From positions 3,162,001 through 3,226,000 of the forward strand of contig NZ_CP065037.1 of the NCBI RefSeq assembly GCF_019924635.1: 64,000 nucleotides of DNA. Direction: 5' to 3'. The stretch is from Leifsonia sp. ZF2019. Lineage in GTDB: Bacteria > Actinomycetota > Actinomycetes > Actinomycetales > Microbacteriaceae. This document shows, in pieces, positions 14,746 to 17,141 of the stretch (positions are counted from its first letter, which is position 1; each line of letters opens with the position of its first letter). The translations under genes and the position numbers were made by a program. The notes below the pieces were generated by a model. The model searched no databases and had not been told where the DNA came from. It saw only the letters and a program-made list of their open reading frames with translations.

Positions 14746-14978
14746 TCGAGGCTCCCCTTCGTCGAGGGCGATCGGCGTTCGGGTCGCCGGTCATCCTCGA
14801 GCTCGTGCCGGTTCGGGTCCGGCACGTGCGGTGGTCTTTCCGCCCCCTGTGCGGTGGCCACGTCTGAAGAGACCGGGTCTTCCGCATTCCATGACGCCGG
14901 TTCCCGAAGTTTTTTCCAGAGATCCCACGGTCTGGATCGCACAGCCACTTCGCGGCCAGGATGCGCGACAATCGTGGG
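14746..14978. other. Intergenic region upstream of the sigma-factor fusion gene
   Basis: About 230 bp without a convincing gene. It holds a small hairpin GTGCCGG/CCGGCAC (14805-14825) and a 9-bp direct repeat GTGCGGTGG (14826-14834 and 14849-14857). A -10-like GACAAT (14967-14972) lies six bases before the ATG at 14979, which would make that transcript leaderless. No clear -35 box is seen. Confidence 0.4.
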
Positions 14979-17141
14979 ATGCGCGCCGTCCACGATCTCT
15001 CCGACCTCGAGCTCGTCGAGGCGACCCGTGGCGGCGACCGTGAGGCGTTCGCCGAACTCTGGCGACGCCACGCGCGGGCGGGTCTCACCGTCGCGCGGGC
15101 GCACAGCGACCTCGACGCCGACGACCTGGTGGCCGAGGCGTACGCCAAGATCTACCAGGCCATCGCCAACGGCCACGGCCCGACCTCCGGCTTCCGGGCC
15201 TACCTGTTCACGACCGTGCGCAGTGTGGCCGCCACCTGGGGGCGCCGCGCGCGCGAGACGCCCATCGATGACGCCGAGACCATCGAGGACCCGGCGTCGA
15301 CCGAGGCCGCCGGGCTCGAAGCCCTCGACCGCTCCCTCACGGCGACCGCCTTCCGCACCCTCCCCACGCGCTGGCAGGAGGTGCTCTGGTACGGCGAGGT
15401 CGAGGGCATGAAGCCCGCCGAGATCGCCCCGCTGCTCGGGATGTCGGCGAACGCCGTCGCCGCTCTCGCCTACCGTGCCCGCGAGGGTCTCCGGCAGGCC
15501 TGGATCCAGGCGCACATCGCCGCAGTGCCGGAGGGGTCGGAGTGCCGGTGGACGACCGAGCGGCTGGGCGCGTACGCCCGGCACGGTCTCGGCAAGCGGG
15601 AGACCGCCAAGGTCGAGGCGCACCTGATCGACTGCGCGCGCTGCACGATCGTCGCTGCGGAGGCCAAGGATGTCGGATCCCGGATCGCCCTCGTTCTGCT
15701 CCCGCTCGTAGCGGGCGTCGGGGGCGCGACCGCGTATACGGCGTGGATGCAGACAGGAGCGCACACCGCGTCGTACGCGCTCGGCGCCGCCGGGGCCGCG
15801 ATGCCGGCGGCCGCCACGGGCGGGACAGGATCGGCTCTCGCGCGCGGGCGCAGGCGCAGCGGGAGGCTCGGCCGCGGGTGCCGCGGGCGGCTCGTCGACG
15901 TCGGCCGGGGTGCCGCCGGCGCCGGCGCCGTGACCATTACGTCGTTCGCCGTCGGCGGGGTGCTCGTAGCGGCCGCCGTGGCTGCGGCCGCCGTTCTCGG
16001 CCCGTCGCTCTTCGCCCCCACGCCCGCCCCCACCAGCGCCGCGGTCGCCGGGCCCGCACAGCCCACCGCCCCGGCGCCCGCCGACGGTTCTGCGACGGCC
16101 GCGCCGACCGATCCTGCACCGGCCGCCCCCGCGCCGACCAGCCCCGCGCCGGTCGCCCCGTCCCCCGCCCTTCCAGCCCCGATCGACGCGCCGTCCACCC
16201 CCGCCGCTCCGCCTGCGCCCGCGCTGCCGGGAGGCGCGACGCCGACCACCCCCACCACACCGACCACCCCGACCGATCCCTCGGGGACCCGGCCGCAACC
16301 CCCGGCCCTGTCGAGCGCCTTCCCCGCGGACGGCTTCACGACCAACGCGCTCGCCATGGACGCCACCGGCACCGCCTCTCCGGACGCCGCAGTGACGGCG
16401 ACTGCGGCTCCCGGCGGTGGCACGGGCATCCGCTCGGCGGCGGCCGCGGCGGCCACGCTGGGCAGCACCACCGCGGGCGCCGACGGCTCCTGGGGGCTCG
16501 GTCTGGATCTGGCCGGACTCGCCGACGGCACGTGGACGCTGTCGTTCACCCAGACGACCGCGGCCGGCACCTCCGACGCCGTGGCGCGCTCGATCGTCAT
16601 CGATCGCACCGCGCTGCCGCCGACGATCGCGACCGTCGACACCGGGACCGGGGCGATCGCCGGCTACGCCGCGCCCATCGTCTCCGGCACGGCCGAGCCC
16701 GGTGCTTCGGTCGAGGTCTCCGACGGCGGAACGGTGCTCACCACGGTGACCGCGGCGGCCGACGGCTCGTGGACGACCGGGGAGCTGACTCACGTCGGGC
16801 AGGAGTTCGCGATCACCGCCCGCCAGACCGACGTGCTGGGCAATGTCTCCGCGTGGTCTGGTCCTACCACGGGGAGCGTTCTGGCGCCGTCGATCACGGC
16901 CACCGTCACTCAGTTCGACGTCGCGATGACCGCGTACGGCCGCCCGGACACCGGGCTTCTGCTGTATGTGAACGGCTCCCCCGCCGGGCTGACCCTGCGG
17001 ACGGCGGCGGACGGAACCGCGGCGCAGACCTACGAGTGGGTCGGCCCTCCCGGCACGTACCGGCTCGGGTTCGGCTACGACTTCGGCGACCGGCACGGGA
17101 TCGTGATGGACGCCCCGGTCACGTTCCCGGGGCTGCCGTAG
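14979..17141 (+). CDS. Sigma-70 family factor fused to zinc-finger, membrane and Ig-like domains
   Basis: A 720-residue fusion. Residues ~1-170 are an ECF-type sigma factor: region 2 (DREAFAELWRRHARAGLTVARAHSDLDADDLVAEAYAKIY) and region 4 (PTRWQEVLWYGEVEGMKPAEIAPLLGMSANAV...YRAREGLRQAW). Residues ~190-225 resemble an anti-sigma zinc finger ending EAHLIDCARC (HxxxCxxC). Hydrophobic segments lie at ~235-255 and ~320-345, then a Pro/Ala/Thr linker with PTTPTTP repeats (~345-440). The rest (~444-720) holds repeated Ig/Big-like modules (GTASPDAAV, GTAEPGASVEV). The start may be ATG 14961 instead. A soluble sigma domain tethered to a likely surface domain suggests membrane-linked signalling; this is inferred. 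An Arg-rich stretch (15840-15932) may reflect two compensating frameshifts. Confidence 0.82.
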   Translation: MRAVHDLSDLELVEATRGGDREAFAELWRRHARAGLTVARAHSDLDADDLVAEAYAKIYQAIANGHGPTSGFRAYLFTTVRSVAATWGRRARETPIDDAETIEDPASTEAAGLEALDRSLTATAFRTLPTRWQEVLWYGEVEGMKPAEIAPLLGMSANAVAALAYRAREGLRQAWIQAHIAAVPEGSECRWTTERLGAYARHGLGKRETAKVEAHLIDCARCTIVAAEAKDVGSRIALVLLPLVAGVGGATAYTAWMQTGAHTASYALGAAGAAMPAAATGGTGSALARGRRRSGRLGRGCRGRLVDVGRGAAGAGAVTITSFAVGGVLVAAAVAAAAVLGPSLFAPTPAPTSAAVAGPAQPTAPAPADGSATAAPTDPAPAAPAPTSPAPVAPSPALPAPIDAPSTPAAPPAPALPGGATPTTPTTPTTPTDPSGTRPQPPALSSAFPADGFTTNALAMDATGTASPDAAVTATAAPGGGTGIRSAAAAAATLGSTTAGADGSWGLGLDLAGLADGTWTLSFTQTTAAGTSDAVARSIVIDRTALPPTIATVDTGTGAIAGYAAPIVSGTAEPGASVEVSDGGTVLTTVTAAADGSWTTGELTHVGQEFAITARQTDVLGNVSAWSGPTTGSVLAPSITATVTQFDVAMTAYGRPDTGLLLYVNGSPAGLTLRTAADGTAAQTYEWVGPPGTYRLGFGYDFGDRHGIVMDAPVTFPGLP

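Follow-up and report, generated by a model that had tools for sequence, protein, structure and literature searches.

A single gene in the window, by which we mean the whole 64,000 nucleotide stretch of Leifsonia sp. ZF2019 DNA analysed here, encodes an ECF sigma factor, a zinc anti-sigma (ZAS) domain, a predicted membrane helix, a Pro/Thr/Ala linker, and three Ig-like domains in one polypeptide. We consider it likely that this protein is a surface-sensing sigma factor in which the sigma domain is capped in cis and released upon a change outside the cell, and that its targets include surface genes. If so, one polypeptide would both sense the cell surface and change transcription, without a separate anti-sigma gene.

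Domain organization of the fusion protein

The whole open reading frame, with all of the domains within it, lies on the plus strand at positions 14961..17141 and encodes 726 amino acid residues counted from the first ATG; the likely start is the second in-frame ATG at 14979, about where the closest homologues begin. The sigma part consists of ECF region 2 (15063..15254, residues 35-98; Pfam PF04542 Sigma70_r2, 26.4 bits against a cut-off of 24) and region 4 (15345..15485, residues 129-175; PF08281 Sigma70_r4_2, 29.2 bits against 25.7), and also matches TIGR02937 over residues 28-180 with an E value of 3.7e-18; the presence of only regions 2 and 4 of sigma-70 is what defines an ECF sigma factor. 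The ZAS domain (zf-HC2; 15543..15644, residues 195-228; PF13490, 33.6 bits against 22.2) has the zinc ligands C195, H221, C225, and C228, and thus the class I pattern of a Cys or His followed by HxxxCxxC. H221, C225, and C228 are invariant across 38 aligned rows, and by our reading of the alignment the first Cys is replaced by His in 2 of the 38. A VIA-align comparison hardly covered the ZAS residues, so that the absence of an anti-sigma match there is uninformative.

The first hydrophobic segment (15672..15755, residues 238-265), in which, by our reading, ZAS helix 3 ends and another helix comes after it, is followed by a loop containing an Arg-rich stretch (15840..15929, residues 294-323), and then by a second hydrophobic segment spanning about residues 318-354, within which a membrane-spanning helix is predicted (15930..15998, residues 324-346; predicted insertion energy -1.12). 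The Pro/Thr/Ala linker (15999..16310, residues 347-450) is evident from the sequence and has low pLDDT to about residue 440. Beyond it AlphaFold2 predicts three beta domains with block pLDDT mostly 94-98. Ig-like domain 1 (16311..16604; beta domain 459-547) exceeds the Pfam cut-off for Big_13 over residues 495-548; domain 2 (16605..16880; beta domain 555-640) exceeds that for Big_6 over residues 573-631; and domain 3 (16881..17138; beta domain 644-722) is without a Pfam match, with block pLDDT of 94-97 except in the last block. The model as a whole has a pTM of 0.47, and the helix at 334-346 is of low confidence. These are the Big-type beta-sandwich repeats of bacterial Ig-like adhesins, and the Ig part matches bacterial adhesins among other Ig and FnIII proteins. 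A sequence-only reading of this DNA had proposed that an ECF sigma domain, a zinc-finger module, hydrophobic segments, a Pro/Thr linker, and Ig repeats all lie in one ORF, and the Pfam and AlphaFold2 results bear this out.

The Arg-rich stretch is probably a local, compensated frame excursion within a Gly/Ala/Ser-rich loop, to judge from the sequence: most of the closest homologues are Gly/Ala/Ser-rich at this place, another reading frame of the window DNA here encodes (in our reading) a Gly/Ala/Ser-rich sequence, and the ORF stays unbroken throughout.

Conservation and selection

A search of 5.8 billion proteins gave 7994 scored candidates, among them 1334 homologues. All 120 listed homologues have a precomputed zf-HC2 match, and many, though not all, have sigma and Ig matches as well. 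The same domain order is present in other genomes. When 90 of the proteins were aligned, no variation was seen at certain residues of the sigma part, at the HxxxCxxC ligands, or at a few Ig positions; together with the domain calls, this upholds the earlier claim that a sigma factor is covalently tied to an anti-sigma-type domain and a surface-type module. Among 120 Microbacteriaceae genomes, 48 have a match to the window sigma-ZAS part at E 1e-20 or better, and 83 of the 88 matches in these genomes are open frames of at least 350 residues; the remaining five have 244-339 residues, one of them with an internal stop, two near contig ends, and two unexplained. In the phylum at large, a 38-row profile built on the N-terminal part hit at least 56 of 396 genomes at E 1e-25, in a count that scored at most 6 candidates per genome and so may have missed matches.

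Three other explanations of the fusion were rejected. An assembly artefact is contradicted by the same joint in many separate records and in the 90 aligned proteins; a gene that is split in relatives, with homologues ending after the zinc finger and the rest encoded separately, is contradicted by the long frames, 5 of 88 being short; and a degenerate sigma factor is contradicted by the low dN/dS of the sigma part. Specifically, comparison with three Leifsonia orthologues (L111, L112, and L113) gave dN/dS values of 0.04-0.075 in the sigma part, 0.045-0.12 in the ZAS domain (residues 189-237), and 0.04-0.07 in the first hydrophobic segment. The values were 0.22-0.27 in the membrane region, 0.22-0.31 in the linker, 0.39-0.63 in the loop, and 0.22-0.52 in the Ig domains. 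Selection thus acts on every part, most strongly on the inner ones.

The Leifsonia genome itself carries a second copy, 65% identical in the sigma-ZAS part and 45% in the Ig part; only these two sigma fusions match, and no further proteins with this Ig region were found in the genome. By our reading of the translations the window gene is flanked by a nagA-like gene upstream and an MFS-like gene downstream, neighbors common to several other genera. One homologue that starts with a sigma factor (P0020, Leifsonia xyli subsp. cynodontis) bears the name hemagglutinin/hemolysin-like protein in its source.

Surface protein genes beside the sigma genes of relatives

Gene calls outside the window were made with codon-bias scripts, so that starts, overlaps, and distances are approximate, and genes at locus ends are longer than given. 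The 3.8 Mb genome of Lysinibacter cavernae (G003, identified by a 100% protein match) has 28 profile matches to tethered sigma factors in frames of 237-704 residues (loci L042-L060). Of the 22 called sigma genes, 16 lie directly downstream of a large surface-type gene on the same strand (990-1645 residues or more, with some truncated where the locus stops); by our own gene calls, 9 of the 16 overlap the upstream partner by 4-11 bases. A scan of five partners and of the L045 neighbor found Big_9 and cadherin-like domains in four and SdrD_B in one, and Big_1 with Invasin_D3 in the L045 neighbor. Similar surface-type neighbors occur in four further genomes (G019, with 4 sigma genes, G017, G062, and G014).

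In Leucobacter chinensis (G051, 100% match) a fusion of sigma factor, zinc motif, and membrane segment carries a SpaA domain as its outside part (L140:4791-6548, minus strand); its sigma matches fall below the Pfam cut-offs, and its zinc motif is recognized by pattern only. The neighboring gene encodes a pilin with GramPos_pilinD1, SpaA, and LPMTG, and fusion and pilin match one another with 183 bits. All 14 full-length relatives of this fusion (P0133-P0146, the L140 protein included; six are named Leucobacter) end in LxxTG followed by a hydrophobic stretch and a basic tail, and in all 14 another residue takes the place of the LPxTG proline (as in LSMTG, LARTG, and LVNTG), as if, judging from these motifs, sortase cleavage had been given up in fusions of the Leucobacter type. 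P0147, P0149, and P0151 lack a sorting-like tail. Cognate similarity between the exterior of a sigma factor and the neighboring surface protein was clearly significant in just one of 23 pairs, that of Leucobacter.

A promoter-like element shared with surface protein genes

Alignments of upstream regions first revealed a promoter-like element, GAGA-N18-ATGACG, that is conserved upstream of orthologues. The window copy (14869..14897) has the form GAGA-N16-YY-ATGACGC, with 18 bp between GAGA and ATGACGC, and in its better supported polarity faces away from the sigma gene. Of 89 upstream regions, 20 contain the element in one direction and 18 in the other, compared with 0.03 expected from shuffles that keep single-base composition only; Labedella phragmitis, L. 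endophytica, and Microbacterium sp. MPKO10 are counted twice among the 89. A stricter form has 5 copies in the Leifsonia genome and none for the reversed-pattern control, and a pattern with one extra spacer base, an accidental control, has 0 sites. Two of these copies lie at the two sigma fusion genes, one at each; another, at position 716287 of the genome, lies 52 bp ahead of the start of a gene for a 512 residue LPTTG surface protein with Big_8 and DUF5979 domains (L189:8698-10236, minus strand; about 714697-716235 of the genome); and the others are near a gene that we read as ArsR-like and before a 56 residue ORF.

Among sites that do not adjoin a sigma gene, the intergenic share is 39 of 51 in sigma-plus genomes and 6 of 26 in sigma-minus genomes (Fisher p 9e-6; 120 genomes). 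This count covers all 51 and all 26 such sites, after exclusion of 37 that lie no more than about 1.1 kb from a sigma match; the loci are 85-87% coding, half of the intergenic sigma-minus sites (3 of 6) come from one genome (G039) that is 83% complete, and a genome counts as sigma-minus when the window sigma-ZAS part finds no match in it at E 1e-20, so that remoter copies are possible. In the examined sigma loci all 29 sites adjoin the sigma gene; none lies inside a called gene, and 2 overlap the called start of the sigma gene. The element is thus linked, as far as its distribution tells, to this sigma family in some genera.

As to polarity, 25 of the 39 intergenic sites have a start codon within 200 bp when read from CGTCAT to TCTC, and 9 of 39 in the opposite polarity. 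We had at first taken the element for a promoter directed at the sigma gene of the window, a view that these counts led us to drop; since the window copy faces away from that gene, autoregulation does not follow, and a search of Leifsonia upstream regions for a copy facing the sigma gene gave best hits no better than random window stretches. Proteins of the anchored type are among the targets of the element in five sigma-plus genomes (the Leifsonia genome, G017, G108, G023, and G041), and slightly beyond 200 bp in three more (G107, G036, and G082). Big_8 adhesins did not emerge as general targets, the strict element being found at 2 of 21 Big_8 gene loci (within 1500 bases). A comparison of the upstream regions with known RNA families gave a single match, below its gathering score.

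Several other placements deserve mention in their own right. A secreted protein of 624-701 residues, C-terminally of the anchored type, adjoins the element in several genera (L244, L284, L294, L312, and L313), and no Pfam domains were found in three scanned target proteins of 638-700 residues. Small proteins of 83-106 residues downstream of the element form pairs that look alike by eye (L229/L235 and L231/L233). Finally, four loci (L073, L074, L077, and L078) have copies between the convergent 3′ ends of the sigma gene and a gene that we read as sdhB-like, where no promoter would be expected for either gene and antisense transcription is possible.

Membrane topology

All segments were scored by predicted insertion energy, on which values below 0 favor insertion. 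Over the 131 proteins of the close family, the first hydrophobic segment has a median of -0.40 (window protein -0.33) and the second a median of -0.76. Distant relatives, represented by 18 phylum loci whose ORFs were read, score above 0.6 for the first segment in all 18 cases and below 0 for the second in 14 of the same 18; of 21 Lysinibacter proteins, 3 score below 0 for the first segment and 15 for the second. The first segment aligns with the end of the ZAS domain, and AlphaFold2 helices at 226-251 and 253-265 have the third ZAS helix running on through it. Over the 131 proteins the mean net charge is +0.5 for the loop and -3.0 for the 40 residues past the second segment; in some distant relatives strongly basic stretches occupy the 30 residues directly before the second segment (L104, +10; L105, +6; L103, +5), and the loops of Leifsonia L120 and L121 are basic as well.

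We favor one span, the second segment, with the Ig region outside; the first segment is probably a non-spanning tail of the ZAS domain, in keeping with the earlier prediction that one of the two segments must be non-spanning if the Ig region is at the surface. The sorting-like tail that closes all 14 proteins of the Leucobacter fusion type would be expected only on an end that goes outside.

Proposed mechanism and alternatives

We envisage the following sequence of events. The sigma domain would be made already joined to the ZAS domain, which, as the family suggests, would cap it in cis; the single membrane helix (residues 324-346) and the Pro/Thr linker would carry the three Ig domains through the cell wall, as comparison with relatives supports; the trigger would come from outside, for instance when something binds, when the protein is stretched, or when a partner surface protein is lost; proteases would then cut the anchor and next the ZAS domain, or the ZAS domain would open; the freed sigma domain would join RNA polymerase, as others have proposed for ECF52; and the likely targets, suggested by the shared element and by gene neighborhoods in relatives, would include cell-surface and sortase-anchored proteins.

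This scheme has competitors. Both hydrophobic segments might cross the membrane, leaving the Ig region in the cytoplasm as an internal scaffold, and both do score as spans in most close homologues (101 of 131 and 121 of 131 below 0); we nonetheless judge this quite improbable, because the first segment is a poor span in all 18 distant relatives, merges with the ZAS helices in the AlphaFold2 model, and is as constrained as the sigma domain, while the second is followed on average by acidic residues and preceded in 22 of 131 proteins by a loop with at least three Lys or Arg, and in relatives the corresponding end bears sorting-like tails or NPCBM domains. In another reading the sigma domain is never released, and a conformational change of the ZAS domain would allow RNA polymerase to work at the membrane with no proteolysis involved. 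Some ZAS zinc sites are redox switches, and no protease site or cleavage motif was identified in the window protein; yet IutY and, in the published model, SCO4117 are activated by removal of the C-terminal part, as far as the available text of the two sources goes (PMC8999054, PMC5826349), and we regard activity without release as unlikely. The notion that a former sigma factor is kept merely as an adhesin with a vestigial N-terminus deserves hardly any weight: we found no point in its support, and the sigma and ZAS domains are among the most constrained parts (dN/dS 0.04-0.12).

A far more serious competitor, to which we would give only slightly less than an even chance, is that the element belongs to another regulator which happens to control sigma genes and some surface genes. 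Such a regulator would account for a window copy that faces away from the sigma gene, for the 0 sites in Lysinibacter despite its 28 profile matches, for sites in both orientations and sometimes between convergent genes, and for a similar excess of sites over the reversed control in sigma-plus (88 compared with 17) and sigma-minus genomes (26 compared with 9). What speaks for the sigma family instead is the difference in intergenic placement between sigma-plus and sigma-minus genomes, and the adherence of all sites in the examined loci to the sigma gene without any falling inside a called gene.

If a tethered sigma factor that senses the surface is indeed what we have here, the Lysinibacter and Leucobacter relatives suggest that the signal is the cell's own adhesins or pili. 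A broader reading, tentative and in our judgment rather doubtful, is that many Microbacteriaceae use tethered sigma factors as built-in reporters of the cell surface: each would display outside either a duplicate of a surface-protein domain or a partner to one, in the form of Ig repeats here and of a sorting-altered pilin domain in Leucobacter, would lie beside adhesin genes or share the element with them, and would tune their expression to the surface structure in place.

Comparison with known systems

In the SigI/RsgI-type systems, sigma and anti-sigma are on separate proteins, and belong to families other than those of the window protein. The likeness, as sketched in the accessible part of a review of hemicellulase regulation, is that in Clostridium thermocellum a surface-sensing anti-sigma controls surface genes (PMC10766802). 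IutY (ECF243) of Pseudomonas putida is closer in plan, a sigma factor fused to its own membrane anti-sigma and processed by Prc and RseP, but serves cell-surface signalling in iron starvation, according to what we could consult of a 2022 review (PMC8999054). The same portion of that review counts ECF48, ECF52, and ECF53 among the factors joined to a transmembrane anti-sigma part, with proteolytic activation expected; like the window protein, ECF48 and ECF53 have a zinc-finger anti-sigma part in the same chain as the sigma factor, along with one or two transmembrane helices, but an Ig region is absent from their description there, and description is the only basis of this comparison. The review of hemicellulase regulation, as available to us, adds that glycosyl hydrolase or carbohydrate-binding domains are predicted in some members of ECF52 and ECF53 (PMC10766802).

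The nearest relative in design is SCO4117 (ECF52) of Streptomyces coelicolor, with a sigma factor, zinc finger, transmembrane region, proline-rich stretch, and carbohydrate-binding domain; its authors suggested that a protease excises the sigma domain, and a strain with truncated SCO4117 had raised expression of that gene, according to the accessible portion of the paper (PMC5826349). Like ECF52 as there described, the window protein combines in one polypeptide a zf-HC2 domain fused to an ECF sigma factor, a transmembrane region (its topology judged by prediction and comparison), a proline-rich extension, and an extracellular-type domain. Unlike ECF52, which ends in NPCBM (PF08305), it ends in Big_13, Big_6, and a third Ig-like domain; NPCBM gave no match in the window protein at E up to 1, and we therefore do not file it as ECF52, although by analogy it should work like an ECF52 factor. 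Two genomes of the same class (7.8 and 9.2 Mb) carry NPCBM proteins that, from their sequences, look like ECF52 (L089 and L095), and the NPCBM phylum loci, found with the profile of the window family, have a weak and then a strong hydrophobic segment as in the window protein.

The sequence-only reading had noted that sigma and anti-sigma functions normally lie on separate proteins; a fusion of this kind is not unprecedented: SCO4117, ECF48, and ECF53 share the plan, and proteolytic release had already been proposed for them in what we could read of the published accounts (PMC5826349, PMC8999054). The mechanism which it offered is plausible and was largely anticipated in print for these related groups. 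In the titles and beginnings of abstracts covered by our literature search we found no published sigma fusion bearing Ig domains or linked to sortase. Should our proposal be correct, it would point to targets that can be tested for sigma factors of the ECF48, ECF52, and ECF53 kind, whose signals have so far, as the consulted portions of the literature have it, only been modelled. The overall design of sigma factor, ZAS domain, and membrane anchor is already known from a few groups; the Ig-bearing form and its apparent links to surface proteins and adhesins look new.
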